64,000 nucleotides of DNA from an uncultured Bacteroides sp. (GTDB lineage: Bacteria; Bacteroidota; Bacteroidia; Bacteroidales; Bacteroidaceae), in NCBI RefSeq assembly GCF_963677945.1, contig NZ_OY782578.1:3563258-3627257 (forward strand), in the 5' to 3' direction. Position 1 is the first letter of the stretch. Every line of letters begins with the position of its first letter. This document shows positions 2,147-40,846 of this stretch, in pieces. The position numbers and the translations under genes are program-made. The notes below the pieces were generated by a model that saw only the letters and a list, made by a program, of their open reading frames with translations, was not told the origin of the DNA and did no database searches.

Positions 2147-3418
2147 ATGAAACTTAAGTTACTAGCTACCACTTTGCTAATAAGCACTTTTTGTGCAGCA
2201 CAAAAGGTAGAATATAAGTTTGACTTTACACAAGGAAAAGCCCTAAAGGGGTATACCGCAATCACTTCTCAGGATAGATTTTCTGCTGAAAAAGGTTATG
2301 GATATGATTTGCAGTCCTCTTCTGCAGGAGAAAATAAACCGTTCTATTTTTCGGTTCAAGTTCCTGATGGAAATTATAAAGTAACCGTTAAAATAGGTTC
2401 TGCAAATAAAGCCGGAGTAACAACCGTAAGAGGTGAATCGCGTCGTCTTTTCATTGAGAATCTTCTCACTAAAAAAGGCGAAATTATTGAGGAAACTTTT
2501 ATTATCAATAAGCGCAATACTAAAATCAGCGAACACGAGTTTGTAAAGATTAAAGCACGGGAGAAGAAGAAACTTAACTGGGATGATAAACTAACTTTGG
2601 AATTTAATGGTGACGCACCTCTTCTTGAGACACTCACTATTGAAAAAGTAAATAACGTTCCAACTATATTCCTTTGTGGGAACTCTACTGTAGTAGATCA
2701 GGACAATGAACCTTGGGCTAGCTGGGGACAAATGATTCCACGGTTCTTTGACAAACATGTATGCTTTGCCAATTATGCAGAATCAGGCGAATCTGCCAAC
2801 ACATTTATCTCTGCTGGAAGATTAGCTAAAGCTCTTACACAAATGAAAGCCGGTGACTATATATTTATGGAATTTGGTCACAACGATCAGAAGCAGAAAG
2901 GCCCGGGAAAAGGTCCATACCTTTCATTCACATCAAGTCTTCGTACATTTATACAGGAAGCAAAAGCAAGAGGCGCACATCCTGTTCTGGTTACTCCTAC
3001 CCAACGAAGAAGCTTTAATGAAGAAGGTAAAATTATGGATACTCACGGAGAATATCCAAATGCAATGAAGAAATTATCTATTGAAGAAAATATACCATTA
3101 ATTGATCTCAACGCCGCAACACGAACACTTTATGAAACATGGGGAATAGAACCATCTAAAAATGCATTTGTACATTATCCGGCAAACACTTACCCAGGAC
3201 AAACACAACCTTTAGCAGACAACACACACTTTAATCCTTACGGAGCATACGAAATATCCAAATGCATTATCGAAGGAATGAAAACAAACAAACTGGATAT
3301 CGTAAAATATCTAAGAAAAGATTACAAGCCATTCAATCCAAAACAGCCGGATAGTCTTGCTTCTTTTCACTGGAACCAAAGTCCTTTTACTGAAGTTGAG
3401 AAACCAGACGGAAACTAA
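2147..3418 (+). CDS. Rhamnogalacturonan acetylesterase-like protein (CE12, SGNH hydrolase)
   Basis: Predicted to remove acetyl groups from rhamnogalacturonan. A signal peptide ends near residue 18 (cleavage around CAA-Q). Residues about 22-168 form a beta-rich, carbohydrate-binding-like N-terminal domain. Residues about 172-400 are the SGNH hydrolase: block I GNSTVVD with nucleophile Ser180, block II Gly214 in AESGES, block III Asn246 in FGHNDQK, and block V Asp358/His361 in DNTHFN. All four catalytic blocks are intact. At 423 aa it matches the two-domain Bacteroides CE12 proteins. It lies 24 bases after the GH2 gene and 21 before a GH28 gene, so the operon couples deacetylation to backbone cleavage. 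The exact acetyl ester is inferred from family and context. Confidence 0.88.
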   Translation: MKLKLLATTLLISTFCAAQKVEYKFDFTQGKALKGYTAITSQDRFSAEKGYGYDLQSSSAGENKPFYFSVQVPDGNYKVTVKIGSANKAGVTTVRGESRRLFIENLLTKKGEIIEETFIINKRNTKISEHEFVKIKAREKKKLNWDDKLTLEFNGDAPLLETLTIEKVNNVPTIFLCGNSTVVDQDNEPWASWGQMIPRFFDKHVCFANYAESGESANTFISAGRLAKALTQMKAGDYIFMEFGHNDQKQKGPGKGPYLSFTSSLRTFIQEAKARGAHPVLVTPTQRRSFNEEGKIMDTHGEYPNAMKKLSIEENIPLIDLNAATRTLYETWGIEPSKNAFVHYPANTYPGQTQPLADNTHFNPYGAYEISKCIIEGMKTNKLDIVKYLRKDYKPFNPKQPDSLASFHWNQSPFTEVEKPDGN

Positions 3419-7220: not shown

Positions 7221-9146
7221 ATGAACTACGGATTTGTAAAAGTGGCCGCAGCAGTGCCACCGGTAAAAGTAGCCGATTGCCAGTATAATGCTGAACAAAT
7301 TGAGAAAATGATAAATGAAGCCGAAGAAAAAGGTGTTCAGATTATTGCTTTCCCAGAACTATGTATCACCGGATATACGTGTGCCGACCTGTTTGCACAG
7401 CAACTTCTGCTGGAAAAAGCAGAAATGGGATTGGTACAAGTAATGAATAATACTCGTCAACTTGATATTATTTGTATAGTAGGAATGCCGGTAATAACCA
7501 ATACAATCCTTATAAATGCTGCAGTTGTATTTCAAGGAGGAAAGATTCTTGGTGTGGTTCCAAAAACTTACTTACCCAATTATAAAGAATTCTACGAGCA
7601 ACGCTGGTTCACTTCGGCCAGAGATGTGATTGACAAAACAGTGCGTCTCTGTGGTCAGTTGGTACCTGTTAGTTCAAACTTACTTTTCGATACTCCCGAT
7701 TGTTGTTTTGGTGTAGAGATATGTGAAGACCTGTGGTCTGTAATTCCTCCCAGTTCCAAACTGGCATTAAAGGGTGCAGAGATTCTTATTAATCTTTCTG
7801 CCGATAATGAAGGTATTGCCAAACATAATTACGTTCGGTCACTAATCAGTCAGCAGTCTGCACGCTGCATTGCCGCATATATATTCTCTTCCTGCGGATT
7901 CGGAGAATCAACTACTGATGTGGTGTTTGCCGGCAACGGATTAATATATGAAAACGGGGCTCTGCTTGCAGAATCCAAACGATTCAGTCTGGAAGAACAA
8001 ATGGTTATTTCAGAAATAGATGTGGAACGTTTACGCACAGAAAGACGTATTAACACAACCTTCTCAGCAAATAGTGGTGATTATAAGGATGCAGAAGCAA
8101 TTCACGTTACTACCGAACTAACAAATAGCAGACCTTTAAGTCTTAGCAGGAAAATAGATGCTCTTCCATTTGTACCAACAGGCAGAACTCTGAATGAAAG
8201 ATGCGAAGAAATCTTTGAGATACAGGTTTCCGGTCTGGCTAAACGTATTGTTCACACACATTCAAAAACAGCAGTTTTAGGTATTTCCGGAGGATTGGAT
8301 TCCACGCTAGCATTACTTGTATGCGTAAAGACTTTCGATAAACTGGGACTTTCATGTAAAGGTATCTTAGGAATTACCATGCCTGGATTCGGAACAACCG
8401 ACCGTACTTATAACAATGCTATCAACCTGATGAAAGAATTAGGAGTTAGTATTCGTGAAATAGATATAAAGGCTGCGTGTATTCAACATTTCAAAGACAT
8501 TGATCATGATATAAACGTGCACGATGTTACTTATGAAAACTCACAGGCTAGAGAACGTACACAAATCCTTATGGATGTAGCAAACCAAACAGGCGGTATG
8601 GTTATTGGTACCGGCGATCTTTCGGAACTTGCTTTGGGATGGGCCACCTATAACGGAGATCACATGTCAATGTATGGCGTTAATGTTAGCATACCCAAAA
8701 CGCTGGTTAAACATTTGGTTGACTGGGTAAGCCAAAATGAAGTTGAAGAAGATGCTGCTATAATCCTGACAGATATTGTAGCTACTCCTATTAGCCCGGA
8801 ACTTATACCTGCAGACGAGGATGGAAATATTCTGCAAAAAACAGAAGATTTAGTAGGCCCATACGAGCTTCACGACTTCTTTCTTTATTACACAATGCGT
8901 TTTGGTTTCCGTCCGGCTAAAATATACTATCTGGCAAACATTGCATTTGCAGGATCATATGATAGAGAAACCATCAAGAAATGGCTACACACCTTCTTCC
9001 GCCGTTTCTTTAACCAACAGTTCAAACGTTCGTGCTTACCCGATGGCCCTAAAGTAGGAAGTATCTCTATAAGTCCGCGTGGTGACTGGCGCATGCCAAG
9101 TGACGCAAGTTCGGCTTTATGGCTCAAAGAAATCGAAGAATTGTAA
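7221..9146 (+). CDS. nadE: NAD+ synthetase, glutamine-hydrolysing
   Basis: Cytosolic enzyme that amidates nicotinic acid adenine dinucleotide to NAD+ using ammonia from glutamine. The N-terminal glutaminase domain has the nitrilase-type Glu-Lys-Cys triad: Glu46 in FPELCIT, Lys115 in VPKTYLPN and Cys168 in VEICEDLW. The C-terminal synthetase has the ATP pyrophosphatase P-loop SGGLDS at 356-361. Length (641 aa) is normal for the two-domain form. I start at the ATG at 7221, preceded by AAAGGAAAAA, rather than 33 bases earlier, because the -7 promoter box overlaps the upstream candidate. Monocistronic, between two strong terminators. Confidence 0.96.
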
Positions 9147-9200
9147 TCTGACATTACCTTTGTAAAAATTATCCCAGTGCTCTTAGCTGGGTTAAATATT

Positions 9201-34049: not shown

Positions 34050-34084
34050 ACAATGCGGTAATAAGTAAAATACCTATCACCGCA
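34050..34084 (-). terminator. Terminator at the cstA remnant
   Basis: Inverted AATGCGGT/ACCGCATT arms near 34050-34084, followed on the - strand by GTTTGTTTATCC. The right arm and the next 20 bases are also present after the intact cstA gene (around 35714), where the hairpin partner is missing. Confidence 0.6.
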
Positions 34085-34095
34085 TTATTTAACTC

Positions 34096-34347
34096 CTATC
34101 CATTAGATGGTTTACCACTTTTAATATTGCTATATGAAGCAACCGGTTCCCCAATTAGTCCAATTTCTACAGACGTAAGTTCTTCGTTACTCATGCGGGG
34201 TATTCTTCTCCAATTGACAAAGCTCTCTATATGAACCAAACATACAAGTATGACTAATATACCGAAAATCTGATATTCCTTCAAAAGAGTATATAAAGCA
34301 GGATGCAGAAAATCAAAACGGAGCCAGTTGTCCCAAGTTTGTCCCAA
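34096..34347 (-). pseudogene. Remnant of a second cstA (3' end only)
   Basis: The last 55 codons (34096-34263) encode a peptide identical to the C-terminus of the nearby CstA at 48 of 55 positions (GILVILVCLV-IESFVNW, then RMSNEELTSVEIGLIGEPV). DNA differences are mostly at third positions, so the copy was under selection as protein before truncation. Upstream of that the frame continues about 28 residues without clear CstA similarity. The downstream non-coding bases (ATCACCGCATTATT) match those after the intact gene too. It is a leftover of a tandem paralogue or of a duplication around the TPR-like gene, not a functional gene. Confidence 0.75.
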
Positions 34348-34417: not shown

Positions 34418-35677
34418 TTATTCTATTATTATTTGATTATTAAAGAGGGTCTTGAAAACTGCTAGCGATTGTTCATTGATATCTTCGCAACAATCTAACA
34501 TAATGGCATAGAAAATTCGTCCTTCAAATCGGCCTTTACTATCTGTTGCCCTATAATATGAGACCTTATTTTTATTACCATCTGGAATAGTCGCTGGATT
34601 TTCCAAAAGTAGTCCAGGATACATTGGGCTATTTCTTTCAATGCCAATCATATATATGCGACCTCCACCCATATCATTATATATTTCTTTATCTTTTATT
34701 CCGTAAGCAACCATCTTTTCATATTTATCAGAAAATGTTATCTTACTTTTATTTGAGTAATTGGAGGTCAGAGTGTTTATGTAATCATCTAACTTGTCCG
34801 TTAAGTTCGCCGCTTTCATGATTATAGCGATAGTATAACTAATTTCTTTCCCTTTTTTACCCTTAATAGCCGGTGGATTTAAGATAAATGCGCTTTGATT
34901 ATTCTTATAATCATATATTGATAGCCTCCATGTAGAATCAACCAAGACTTTAATACCTAAAGGCCGGGAAGTAAATGCTAATTTATCTCCTTCTGACGAT
35001 GACCATATATCTTCTTTTTTATAAGAGATATTTTTATCTACATCAATGATTCTTTTATGTATCTCCGGTCCAAGCTGTGATTCGAAATGTCCAGGAGTAC
35101 CCAAAATACTTCTCGCTTTGTCCATAGCGTAAATGCAATGTGATGGCATGTTTGTAACAGCTGCAGCCCAAGCATATTCTTCCCAAAAGTCAGCAGGTTG
35201 TTTAGCAGGCAATAATTTTTGTGCTTTTAAAAAATTATCAATGCCTAATGTAGGAACACTGGAAAGCACATAATGAAACCCCAGAAACCAGTAAGTTCTA
35301 TAATCATTGGAATTAATCGCAATGGCCGAATTGTAATTATTTACAGCTAACTGGTAATAATCAGATTCGTCAAGATTATACAGGTAATGTGCAATGTCAC
35401 CTAACAGCATGAAAAGTTCTTCGTTTTTTGTTGAAACAGATGAAAACATGACATAGCTTTCACGAAGGTTCTTTATTAATTCGTTTTTGGATTTGTCATA
35501 GTTCCACTCGTTTGTCCAATGATTAAAGTATTGCTGATTGTCTTTAATATAGTTGAAAGCATTTACTAATCTCCCATCATTACTAATTTTAGAGATCTCA
35601 ATATAGTTCACATTAGAAAATGCATTCATTGCTATTAGCATTCCAATTAAAAGAAATATCGCCTTTCTCATATTCAT
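34418..35677 (-). CDS. Exported TPR-like protein, unknown function
   Basis: A 419-residue protein with a signal peptide to about residue 21 (LIAMNAFS). Residues about 95-195 look like tetratricopeptide helices (YYQLAVNNYNSAIAINSNDYRTYWFLGFHY; DNFLKAQKLLPAK). The C-terminal half (about 215-419) is beta-rich with no recognised motif and ends with a segment (GRFEGRIFYAIMLDCCED) resembling stress-response or amylase-binding-like domains only weakly. It lies between cstA and the cstA remnant on the same strand; the flanking duplicated sequence suggests it was inserted there. Function unknown; likely periplasmic. Confidence 0.7.
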   Translation of the reverse strand: MNMRKAIFLLIGMLIAMNAFSNVNYIEISKISNDGRLVNAFNYIKDNQQYFNHWTNEWNYDKSKNELIKNLRESYVMFSSVSTKNEELFMLLGDIAHYLYNLDESDYYQLAVNNYNSAIAINSNDYRTYWFLGFHYVLSSVPTLGIDNFLKAQKLLPAKQPADFWEEYAWAAAVTNMPSHCIYAMDKARSILGTPGHFESQLGPEIHKRIIDVDKNISYKKEDIWSSSEGDKLAFTSRPLGIKVLVDSTWRLSIYDYKNNQSAFILNPPAIKGKKGKEISYTIAIIMKAANLTDKLDDYINTLTSNYSNKSKITFSDKYEKMVAYGIKDKEIYNDMGGGRIYMIGIERNSPMYPGLLLENPATIPDGNKNKVSYYRATDSKGRFEGRIFYAIMLDCCEDINEQSLAVFKTLFNNQIIIE

Positions 35678-35731
35678 TTATGGTTTGTCTTTCTTATATA
35701 CTTGCTGCACTATCACCGCATTATTAAACTC

Positions 35732-37579
35732 CTATTCTTTAGATGGTTTACCACTTTTAATATTGCTATATGAAACAACCGGTTCCCCAATAAGTCCAAT
35801 CTCAACAGAAGTAAGCTCTTCGTTACTCATGCGAGTTATTTTTTTCCAATTAACAAAGCTCTCAATAAGCACCAGACAAACCAGAATAACTAATATACCG
35901 GAAATAGCAGAAAGTGCATACAAACCTTTTGGTAGATAATTATCAAAAATATTCATCAGTGCCGACGATAAAGTAGTGACCGTAACAAAACACAAAGGAA
36001 TGGCAGTAACCCAAACATACTTATTCTGCTGAGAACGGAGTAAATATGTTGTTCCAATGGCAAATGCAATGATTGCCAGCATCTGATTGGCCGTTCCAAA
36101 GAGAGGCCAGATTGTTGAAATATCGCCTGTGTATAATAAATATCCCCAGAAGAAAGTTATGAGTCCGGAAAAGAAAATGGCATTAAACCAGGCGCGCCCC
36201 TTTGATATATCTCTTGAATTCTGACGGAATAAATCCTGAAGCAGATATCGGCCGATCCTTGTACCTGAATCAATTGTTGTGAGGATAAACAATGCCTCGA
36301 ACATTATACAGAAATGATACCAGTACCCCATCATTGATCTCAACCAGGGAATACTCTCAAATACATAAGTCATTCCCACAGCCAAAGATACCGAACCTCC
36401 GGGTCTACCTGCCAAATCCTCTCCTACTAAAGACGAAAGCTCCGGCAAATCAACAGGAACCATATGCAGTTTAGAAAATACTTCAGGCAGGGAGTTGATA
36501 GCAAAATAATCAGAAGTTGGCAAAACTGTTGCAGCCAGTAAAGCCATGATGGCAACAAACGCTTCTAATAGCATTGCACCAAAACCGATTGGTAATATAT
36601 CTTTTTCGTTTTTAATCAGTTTTGGTGTTGTTCCGGAACTTATCAGTGAATGGAAACCAGACAAAGCACCACAAGCAATTGTTATAAAAAGAAAAGGAAA
36701 TACTTTACCGGGAACAATCGGACCACCTCCATTTACAAATTGTGTAATAGCCGGCATTTTAATATCGGGCTGAATAATAATGATGCCAATAGCCAATGCA
36801 CCGATAACACCAAGTTTCATGTAAGTACTCAAATAGTCTCTGGGTAAGAGTAATAACCAAACGGGCAATGCAGCAGCAAAGAATCCATAAATTGCCAGAA
36901 TTAAAGACATCTGCTTTTGGTCAAAATCCAAATAAGCACCTAAAGCTGAATTTTGAATCACCGGACCAAGAATGACTCCCAGCAGAACTAAAAGTACTCC
37001 TAAGATGGTTCCTTCCCATATTTTATCGGGACGGATATATTTCAAATAGATACCAATAAAAAGTGCAACAGGAATTGTAAAGCCAACCGTGAATGTTCCC
37101 CAAGGTGAGTTTTTCAGAGCATTAACAACGGGAATACCTAAACCGGCCATTGATACAATTAAAATAGCTATTACAGCAATGGAGGCTATAAAACCTAATC
37201 TGTCGCCAACTAAGTCTCTTGCAATTTCAGCAATTGACTTTCCTCTATAACGAACAGAAGCTGTAAGAATTACCATATCGTGAACAGCTCCGGCAAATAA
37301 AGAACCGATAAGTATCCATAAAACACCGGGAAGAAATCCATATTGAGCTGCGAGTACCGGACCAATTAATGGACCTGCTCCGGCTATTGCCGCAAAATGA
37401 TGTCCCATTAATACAACTTTGTTTGTTGGCACATAATCGTGCCCATCATTGAGAGTTTCAGAAGGAACAAGATTGTTTTTATTCAGCATTAAAACTTTAT
37501 ACGCCATGAATCTGCCGTAGACACCATAGCCTATAACAAGGAATAATGCGGCAATAATTACAATTACAATAGAATTCAT
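35732..37579 (-). CDS. cstA: Carbon starvation protein CstA (peptide/pyruvate-type permease)
   Basis: Inner-membrane transporter of 615 residues with about 16 spans, related to E. coli CstA and BtsT, which import peptides or pyruvate under carbon limitation. Family signatures include the N-terminal GYGVYGRFMAYKV, DGHDYVPTNKVVLMGHHFAAIAGAGPLIGPVLAAQYGFLPG, and the LFGTANQMLAIIA block near the C-terminus. Complete at both ends. The last 55 codons are duplicated at 34096-34263. No two-component BtsS/BtsR-like regulator is adjacent. Substrate is inferred. Confidence 0.93.
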   Translation of the reverse strand: MNSIVIVIIAALFLVIGYGVYGRFMAYKVLMLNKNNLVPSETLNDGHDYVPTNKVVLMGHHFAAIAGAGPLIGPVLAAQYGFLPGVLWILIGSLFAGAVHDMVILTASVRYRGKSIAEIARDLVGDRLGFIASIAVIAILIVSMAGLGIPVVNALKNSPWGTFTVGFTIPVALFIGIYLKYIRPDKIWEGTILGVLLVLLGVILGPVIQNSALGAYLDFDQKQMSLILAIYGFFAAALPVWLLLLPRDYLSTYMKLGVIGALAIGIIIIQPDIKMPAITQFVNGGGPIVPGKVFPFLFITIACGALSGFHSLISSGTTPKLIKNEKDILPIGFGAMLLEAFVAIMALLAATVLPTSDYFAINSLPEVFSKLHMVPVDLPELSSLVGEDLAGRPGGSVSLAVGMTYVFESIPWLRSMMGYWYHFCIMFEALFILTTIDSGTRIGRYLLQDLFRQNSRDISKGRAWFNAIFFSGLITFFWGYLLYTGDISTIWPLFGTANQMLAIIAFAIGTTYLLRSQQNKYVWVTAIPLCFVTVTTLSSALMNIFDNYLPKGLYALSAISGILVILVCLVLIESFVNWKKITRMSNEELTSVEIGLIGEPVVSYSNIKSGKPSKE

Positions 37580-38927: not shown

Positions 38928-39045
38928 TTTACATTTTCAATTAAAAATCTCTATTCACAACCATTTGTTATTTCAGCTTCAAATATACTAAATCAAGTTT
39001 CATATAAAACTGCTGAATGGTTCTTTTATTTGCTTCTGCCAAAAT

Positions 39046-39537
39046 TTAAATATTCAAAGCCTTATTTTCTTCTTTAATTCTTACTGACAACAAAATTGCA
39101 TTAAATAGAGTAAAAATGACCGCAGTAAAATACAAATCAAAAATTAAAGGTATAACAGCTATTTCAATAATCACAATCATATAATTAGGATGTTTAAAAT
39201 ACCTGTACACCCCTTTTTTTATTAATGCATAATTGGGGATGCGATATATTTTTGTGTTCCAAAATTTACCCAACAATAAAATGACCCAGATCTTAAATGC
39301 AAGAAGTATAAAATATAGAATGAGTAAAAAAGAGCTGTAAAACACAGTTCGTTTCATTGAATACTCAATTATCAACGAAATGATAAATAAAACATGAAGT
39401 GCTACTATATACAGATAATGTTTTTGTCCATATTCAATTGCACCATTTTCTAATAACCATTTTTCATTCCGCTTGGATAGAATTAATTCTCCAATTCGTA
39501 ATATAATTAAGAATGATATAAAAAGGGGGAAAGCCAT
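39046..39537 (-). CDS. ICMT-family membrane methyltransferase (alkylpyrone O-methyltransferase-like)
   Basis: A 163-residue integral membrane protein with four or five spans. The C-terminal IKKGVYRYFKHPNYMIVIIEIAVIPLIF is the isoprenylcysteine carboxyl methyltransferase signature (RHPxY with following Glu). Such small proteins next to type III polyketide synthases, e.g. YpbQ/BpsB beside BpsA in Bacillus subtilis, methylate alkylpyrones. Here it begins one base after the polyketide synthase ends, so the two form a bicistronic unit. Methyl transfer from S-adenosylmethionine to a pyrone or resorcinol hydroxyl is the likely reaction; the product is unknown. Confidence 0.82.
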   Translation of the reverse strand: MAFPLFISFLIILRIGELILSKRNEKWLLENGAIEYGQKHYLYIVALHVLFIISLIIEYSMKRTVFYSSFLLILYFILLAFKIWVILLLGKFWNTKIYRIPNYALIKKGVYRYFKHPNYMIVIIEIAVIPLIFDLYFTAVIFTLFNAILLSVRIKEENKALNI

Positions 39538-39538
39538 A

Positions 39539-40603
39539 TTACATTTTATTCATTTGAAGCAAAACCATCTCACACGAAAAGCCAGGCCCCATTGAGGACA
39601 TCAATCCATAACCATTCTCAAAGCCTTGAGTAAGAAACCTCTCCAGCACATATAAAACTGTGGGACTGGACATATTGCCATTCTCAGTCATCACCTCTCT
39701 TGTATTTTTAAGAAAATCGCCCTCTACCGATAAAGCTTCTTCATAAGCATCTATGACTTTTTTACCACCTGGATGAAATATAAAATTCTTTATATCTGAA
39801 ATTTTTAAATGATTTTTATCTAAGAATGAAGTGATGTCGTTATTTACATTTTTTGCAATAATAGATGGAATGTCTGATGAAAACAAAACTTTAAATCCTT
39901 CATCAACAAAATTCCATCCCATTACATCAAGTGAATCAAAATACAACTTACTTTGACTAGCCAGAAATGTTATTTCATTTTTGGTATTGTTTACATAATT
40001 ATCTCCAACAATCAAACAGGCAGCTATACCATCAGAAAATAAACTTGTACCAATAAAGTTACTCATACTAAAATCATTGCGTAAAAAAGTCAATGAACAC
40101 AACTCTACAGCTACAAGTAAAACCACTGCTTCTGGATTTGCTTTAGCCAAAACACTTGCTTTTGAGTAACCGGCAACTCCTCCTCCACAACCTAAACCAA
40201 AAATAGCCATACGATTGATGTTTTTGTTCAATCTCATTTTATTAATGATAAGCGCATCTAAGCTTGGTGTAGAAAGTCCGGTTGATGAAATAAGAATTAT
40301 ATCAGTTATATCATCCTTATTAATTTGTGCAATAGAAACACACTCCTCTATTGCTTTGACTGAATATTCAAGAGATATCTTTATATATTCTGCATTCTGA
40401 TCCTGAAAAGTATGTAGGTTTGAATAGTAATCCAGTGATTTGCAGAAATTTCTTGTTACTATTTCTGTATTGTCAAATACACTCAGCATACTTTCAACTT
40501 GCGGAAAAGAAGGTGCAAAAAAATTTTTGGCATATTTCTTCACTTCCTTCTGATCTGTTTTGAAAGGAAAATCAATTTTCGATATAGCTGCTAATGAAGG
40601 CAT
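39539..40603 (-). CDS. Type III polyketide synthase (chalcone/stilbene synthase family)
   Basis: Homodimeric thiolase-fold enzyme that extends acyl-CoA with malonyl-CoA and cyclises the product. The full catalytic triad is present: Cys139 in FGLGCGGGVAGY, His277 in FIFHPGGKKV and Asn310 in ENGNMSSPTV. The C-terminal GYGLMSSMGPGFSCEMVLLQ is the family's GxGPG loop. Length 354 aa is normal. With the ICMT-family neighbour it resembles bacterial alkylpyrone/alkylresorcinol clusters, which make methylated membrane-active phenolic or pyrone lipids. Type III synthases are uncommon in gut-type Bacteroidota. The upstream 240-base spacer holds no other gene. Confidence 0.93.
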   Translation of the reverse strand: MPSLAAISKIDFPFKTDQKEVKKYAKNFFAPSFPQVESMLSVFDNTEIVTRNFCKSLDYYSNLHTFQDQNAEYIKISLEYSVKAIEECVSIAQINKDDITDIILISSTGLSTPSLDALIINKMRLNKNINRMAIFGLGCGGGVAGYSKASVLAKANPEAVVLLVAVELCSLTFLRNDFSMSNFIGTSLFSDGIAACLIVGDNYVNNTKNEITFLASQSKLYFDSLDVMGWNFVDEGFKVLFSSDIPSIIAKNVNNDITSFLDKNHLKISDIKNFIFHPGGKKVIDAYEEALSVEGDFLKNTREVMTENGNMSSPTVLYVLERFLTQGFENGYGLMSSMGPGFSCEMVLLQMNKM

Positions 40604-40786
40604 AGTATCAAAATTAAGAATGTCATATTTATTTTATCTATTAAAAACTTGCACAGACGCAAAGTTCCTGAGATACAATATAATTAACATCCTTATTTTA
40701 AATATGTTCAGTGTATCACTCAGTCTAGTTTTTGAAATAAGATTTTTTATGTAAATAATTTACAGAAGTCAATAACAATTCAAGAA

Positions 40787-40835
40787 ATAAAGATTTTACC
40801 TCATAGATACAAGATATATTAGGTAAAATCTTTAT
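40787..40835 (-). terminator. his operon terminator
   Basis: Perfect 15-bp stem ATAAAGATTTTACCT (40787-40801) with its complement (40821-40835) and a 19-base loop, 12 bases past the hisB stop. On the - strand it is followed by TTCTTGAATTG, a weak T tract. Confidence 0.7.
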
Positions 40836-40846
40836 CCAAAAATCTA

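Follow-up and report, generated by a model that had tools for sequence, protein, structure and literature searches.

The 64,000-nucleotide stretch of Bacteroides DNA analysed here (the window) contains, in this order, hisB, a gene for a type III polyketide synthase (PKS), a gene for an ICMT-type membrane methyltransferase (MT), a gene of the Fur family and a cation transporter gene (Table 1). A complete Cys-His-Asn type III PKS with an MT gene one base behind it had been proposed in the original prediction, and both points were confirmed: the two ORFs are intact on the minus strand, the MT gene lying 3' of the PKS gene with a single base between the PKS stop and the MT start. Membership of the PKS in the type III (chalcone synthase) superfamily was indicated by the catalytic triad and gatekeeper Phe, by the Pfam domains Chal_sti_synt_C (E 2.9e-18) and Chal_sti_synt_N (E 1.1e-17), which scored 66.8 and 64.6 bits against a cut-off of 27, and by the fold. 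The triad and gatekeeper were assigned by chalcone synthase numbering, and C139, H277, N310 and F189 are unchanged in all 102 aligned rows. Residue counts and the PKS tree (102 rows, 100 of them differing) were made without L073 and L117 (PKS frame of at most 300 aa), L201 (broken) and L204 (a piece at a contig edge).

Table 1. Positions of the genes and sequence features discussed.
Feature	Sequence	Position	Strand	Remarks
Type III PKS	window	39539-40603	minus	354 aa; C139/H277/N310, gatekeeper F189, W230
ICMT-type membrane MT, BpsB-like	window	39046-39537	minus	163 aa; Pfam ICMT
Hairpin between hisB and PKS	window	40785-40837	minus	z -2.75; equalled by 2 of 200 shuffles
Apparent insert	window	38928-40836	n/a	117 nt that do not align take its place in sister G873 (L206 1384-1500)
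Apparent insert, bounds against G003 (L153)	window	38936-40843		
cstA end, two copies	window	35710-35905 and 34074-34269	minus	196 nt, 88% identity
Further PF00195 match	genome of the window	C1:2661744-2662196		29.2 bits, cut-off 27
Bacterioferritin-like gene 5' of PKS	L052	8757-9233		
Bacterioferritin-like gene 5' of PKS	L056	6334-6810		
Bacterioferritin-like gene 5' of PKS	L057	6611-7087		
Bacterioferritin-like gene 5' of PKS	L074	6394-6855		
Bacterioferritin-like gene 5' of PKS	L075	7417-7893		
FAD/NAD oxidoreductase gene 3' of MT	L053	182-850		
FAD/NAD oxidoreductase gene 3' of MT	L056	3966-4637		
PKS copy split over two frames	L201 (G899)	7600-9162		adjoins an intact-looking MT
Fragment matching the hisB end	L207 (G930)	2638-2767		79%; past the cation transporter gene

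The top structure-solved relative of the PKS in a sequence search was Mycobacterium tuberculosis Pks11 (4jao, E 1.1e-57), which was also the fold nearest to its AlphaFold model (mean pLDDT 92.3; TM 0.94). Both proteins have the CSLT and MGW motifs, and C169 and T172 of the window PKS lie within a stretch, VELCSLT, that recurs in Pks11; they differ in that their identity is only 33%. The PKS scored 169.3 bits against the DpgA family (NCBIfam NF042429), below its equivalog cut-off of 425. The further PF00195 match in the genome is presumably a FabH-like gene and not a second PKS.

Classification of the second protein as an ICMT-type MT stood (PF04140, E 1.5e-24, 86.6 bits against a cut-off of 24), but the RHPxY motif attributed to it reads KHPNY here, with HPNY (residues 116-119) unchanged across 16 aligned rows. 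A score of 25.5 bits against NF040696 (protein-S-isoprenylcysteine O-methyltransferase; cut-off 160) ruled out an isoprenylcysteine methyltransferase equivalog. Its AlphaFold model (mean pLDDT 92.7) was nearest to Ma-ICMT (4a2n, E 0.043) and eukaryotic ICMT (5v7p, E 0.066), with a probability of 1.00 and weak E-values.

The hairpin upstream of the PKS gene is possibly a terminator, in which case the two genes would form their own transcription unit. It was absent from a terminator scan, which takes loops of 3-8 nt only, and is none of the four terminator-like sites found between 38400 and 41100 (0.8 expected). Sigma-70-like sites in that interval were at chance level (14 found, 15.2 expected), TANNTTTG occurred 99 times in the window against 85 expected (7 of 100 shuffles had as many), and a common promoter motif was discarded after inspection by eye of 16 aligned upstream stretches, which have no shared block.

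Pairing of the PKS and MT genes and their distribution

The MT gene was found directly 3' of the PKS gene in 19 of the 20 loci of one set of relatives (the miss being L070) and, by tblastn, in 77 of the 80 loci of another (misses L120, L121 and L142), which comprised the best 80 of at least 574 relatives, that is, the nearest ones and no fair draw. Clustering of neighbouring ORFs recovered the MT of L121, so that both tests pooled gave 78 of these best 80; the two sets overlap in at least two loci (L053=L072 and L061=L096). Starting from the MT, 31 of the 34 strong matches in 395 genomes of the phylum (at least 156 bits, the next match having 86.8) are preceded on their own strand, at a distance of less than 400 nt, by a type III PKS, in a tally of 34 MT and 33 PKS places, which indicated that the arrangement is no accident. 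The exceptions were G188, where the MT match begins 227 nt from the contig start and there is no listed PKS match, and G334 and G342, where the PKS matches are located away from the MT match. PKS and MT distances were also correlated (Pearson 0.86, Spearman 0.75, 89 rows; none of 2000 permutations as high). At the level of sequence comparison, these results showed the PKS and the MT to be strictly paired and inherited together.

Likening this layout to BpsA/BpsB of Bacillus proved justified. An ICMT-type MT gene lies immediately 3' of the PKS gene on the same strand, a PKS-then-methyltransferase order shared with the B. subtilis operon, which Nakano (2009) reportedly described as making alkylpyrones; many Bacillota are among the PKS relatives listed, and Bacillus relatives retain the triad and an ICMT-type MT. 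By eye, the Bacillus locus L149 reads xpt-like (xanthine phosphoribosyltransferase), permease, PKS, MT and dynamin-like, presumably the order around bpsA-bpsB in B. subtilis. The comparison was made with other Bacillus and Bacillota relatives and by synteny. The B. subtilis system differs in phylum and in neighbours, and the window PKS is about 40-47% identical to the Bacillaceae relatives compared. Among the matches listed, Mucilaginibacter loci have the same cassette with 60-65% PKS identity, but they form their own 26-row clade and have their own neighbourhood; to our knowledge, they have no known product. Extracts of one study report T3PKS predictions in all of its Mucilaginibacter species (PMC9843747).

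Matches to the PKS at E <= 1e-10 were present in 179 of 395 genomes of the phylum and in 15 of 393 of the order, four of the latter being close-type at 75% identity or more (G000, which is the genome of the window, G040, G560 and G561) and the other 11 at 28-33%. At E <= 1e-20, 8 of 158 genus genomes had a match, the window counted, and two of these eight copies are incomplete or broken (a 123-residue piece in G895 and the broken copy in G899, which reflects either decay or an assembly error). The expectation that type III PKSs are unusual in Bacteroides-like genomes was thus upheld for the genus and the order and unsupported at phylum level; T3PKS clusters are described, in extracts of PMC9100364 and PMC7440613, as a class often met in Bacteroidetes and Flavobacteriaceae. 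In the phylum sample, a strong MT match adjoins the PKS in just 31 of the 179 PKS-bearing genomes, and the others, mostly with more distant PKSs, would have other partners or none.

The hisB-fur site and the probable mobility of the pair

Three sister genomes have the Fur and cation transporter genes directly after hisB, with the pair absent from the site. G873 and G930, whose Fur and HisB are 99% and 98% identical to those of the window and which are not among the eight PKS-bearing genus genomes, have a hisB-fur gap of 126 nt against 1.9 kb in the window, where the PKS-MT pair fills it. In G003 (HisB 97%) fur and the transporter gene follow about 19 nt past the hisB stop, and the PKS gene (89% identity) lies about 0.9 Mb from this site, adjoining a bacterioferritin-like gene. 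Since hisB directly precedes fur and the transporter gene in all three sisters, the pair looks to have been inserted between two unrelated genes and the link to Fur appears coincidental. Insertion was favoured over loss by parsimony, loss in the sisters being possible in principle.

The possible metal link suggested earlier from the Fur and cation transporter genes did not survive these comparisons. Besides the sister sites, in the sequence examined none of the 100 further PKS neighbourhoods contained a homologue of Fur, the transporter, CstA or HisB (0 of 20 at E <= 1e-4 and 0 of 80 at E <= 1e-3, these being the best 80 of at least 574), and of the five genus genomes that matched Fur as well as the PKS (G000, G886, G852, G003 and G895) only that of the window has them adjacent; in G886 the Fur match (74% identical) lies about 1.4 Mb from the PKS. 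A metal link through Fur/CDF was rejected on these three grounds.

The copy nearest to the window PKS is that of G886 (94% identity), located near dnaJ, and in G852, G896 and G031 the PKS gene adjoins a SusC-like gene, so that its surroundings, viewed by eye, differ among the genus genomes inspected. PKS identity does not track HisB identity (G040, HisB 60% and PKS 77%; G031, 80% and 70%; G560, 77% and 76%), and G322 has a PKS of 78% identity yet no HisB match at E <= 1e-20. The G+C content of the PKS gene (0.328) is the second lowest among the 28 long ORFs of the window, which is no proof of foreign origin because the native-looking neighbour fur is as low (0.326). In the window, the hisB-fur interval has no mobile-element genes. 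Carriage by plasmids or phages was discarded: 162 of 72,556 plasmid records matched, with identities under 60% throughout (42% at best), and among 50,697 phage records the sole two matches, at 25%, were to Streptomyces phage ZL12. The PKS tree splits the copies of the window, G886, G003 and G852 from those of G031 and G896; despite this split, several acquisitions within the genus were not retained as an explanation, as a single clade was not rejected by the AU test (p 0.164). We consider that the pair has most likely moved horizontally.

A recently arrived cassette could also be without function in its host, silent or decaying, as its patchy occurrence (8 of 158 genomes, with the copies of G899 and G895 broken or partial) and varied surroundings would allow. 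The window copy is nevertheless intact, highly similar to that of G886 and has retained its catalytic residues, and we regard such a state as improbable.

The hisB-end fragment of G930, past the cation transporter gene, looks like a copy made by recombination. In the window, the end of cstA is duplicated, the second copy lying on the far side of the gene at 34418-35677, in and past a small ORF (34096-34347).

Predicted product of the pair

Taken together, the pair is quite probably a two-gene cassette of BpsA-BpsB type that has moved horizontally, with an O-methylated alkylpyrone and/or alkylresorcinol as predicted product. By analogy with the family, a long-chain fatty acyl thioester would be loaded onto C139 of the PKS and extended with two or three malonyl units; the chain would then cyclise, mainly through lactonisation, which gives a 4-hydroxy-6-alkyl-2-pyrone; a part may instead close in an aldol reaction, which gives an alkylresorcinol. 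Finally, the membrane MT would use SAM to O-methylate the ring hydroxyl, yielding the methyl ether of the lipid. Known systems offer examples of such products. Extracts of PMC5686519 report C15 alkylpyrones, methylated and unmethylated, from wild type B. subtilis, and triketide pyrones with small amounts of alkylresorcinols upon overexpression of bpsA-bpsB; Pks11 is described as using C16 or C18 starters to form methylated alkylpyrones (extracts of PMC6274091).

The choice between both ring types was examined through W230, which aligns with a Trp of Pks11. According to extracts of PMC6274091, PMC5916927 and PMC9927152, replacement of Trp281 by Gly turned the resorcinol former ArsB into a pyrone former, and the Pks11 Trp is equated with Trp281; equivalence of W230 to this position was established through the Pks11 alignment and this statement on Pks11. 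On this basis W230 would point to a resorcinol. All 102 aligned rows share it, however, those of Bacillus too; 39 rows fall outside the Bacteroidota-side group, many of these being from Bacillota. Since it is invariant there as well, and the pyrones predominate among the products of the B. subtilis pair, W230 does not discriminate and was dismissed as a product predictor. ArsB/ArsC of Azotobacter resemble the window PKS in their long-chain type III PKS chemistry, and ArsB also in this Trp (extracts of PMC6274091). The window pair differs from the ars system in having no adjoining fatty acid synthase partner. The ars operon is not known to include a methyltransferase.

Alternatively, the pair could belong to a quinone pathway of the SrsABC/PkqABC type, in which an alkylresorcinol formed by the PKS is methylated by the MT and then turned by a flavin enzyme into an alkylquinone electron carrier. 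Streptomyces SrsABC and Mycobacterium PkqABC likewise combine a PKS and a methyltransferase, and the Trp at the ArsB 281 position, present as W230, has been tied to resorcinol-forming quinone operons (extracts of PMC9927152). Two relatives, L053 (=L072) and L056, moreover have a FAD/NAD oxidoreductase gene 3' of the MT. The third gene that characterizes those operons in extracts of PMC9927152, for a hydroxylase or oxidoreductase, is however missing beside the window pair. The next gene there is of the Fur family. Six matches to FAD_binding_3, the family to which SrsC presumably belongs, were found in the genome of the window, all within the first 36 of 349 model positions, and the L056 oxidoreductase matches NAD-binding and FAD_binding_8 domains and, weakly, ferric reductase, but no hydroxylase. 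A quinone pathway thus seems very improbable. Because W230 is uninformative, no hydroxylase adjoins the pair and the FAD_binding_3 matches are partial, a methylated alkylpyrone is favoured as the predicted product, an alkylresorcinol being possible. The two oxidoreductases (223/224 aa) are 62% identical, their domains having been read from L056, and L053 also has an FMN-reductase gene 5' of the pair.

By analogy, the product may serve this organism as a signal or a membrane lipid. The gene kind is already known from the Bacillus pair, so the novelty is modest and lies in an unusual host; our literature search found no product of such a PKS-MT pair in Bacteroides. Genomes of relatives that have or lack the pair, together with the mapped pair-free sister site, provide a clean test of the role of one small lipid pathway.

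Bacterioferritin-like neighbours in related loci

A weaker lead concerns iron. In 5 of 19 copies of the 21-row clade that includes the window PKS, the gene at position -1 of the PKS encodes a bacterioferritin-like protein (ferritin family, PF00210), and the five loci are spread over three branches. The clade has 20 distinct copies, window included; L083, which has only 330 nt of upstream sequence, was set aside, leaving 19. The cassette could accordingly belong with iron storage, its product shielding membranes under oxygen or iron stress. Against this, 14 of the 19 copies have no such neighbour, the genome of the window has no bacterioferritin match at E <= 1e-10, and among the 105 loci searched the 100 besides these five have none at E <= 1e-8. 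Hairpins seen by eye between both genes in L052, L056 and L075, three of the five loci, suggested separate transcripts, and bacterioferritin and PKS identities were weakly correlated (r 0.56, p 0.09, 10 pairs). An iron- or oxygen-linked lipid is therefore unlikely. Equally doubtful is a broader scenario in which the cassette travels in Bacteroidota, sometimes with bacterioferritin, as an accessory module whose O-methylated alkylpyrone or resorcinol lipid would help anaerobes against oxygen and iron stress, the window copy having been separated from its iron partner. The neighbour nonetheless supplies a concrete condition, iron or oxygen, under which to probe the pair. The gap between the bacterioferritin-like gene and the PKS gene is 98-104 nt in four of the loci and 16 nt in the fifth.
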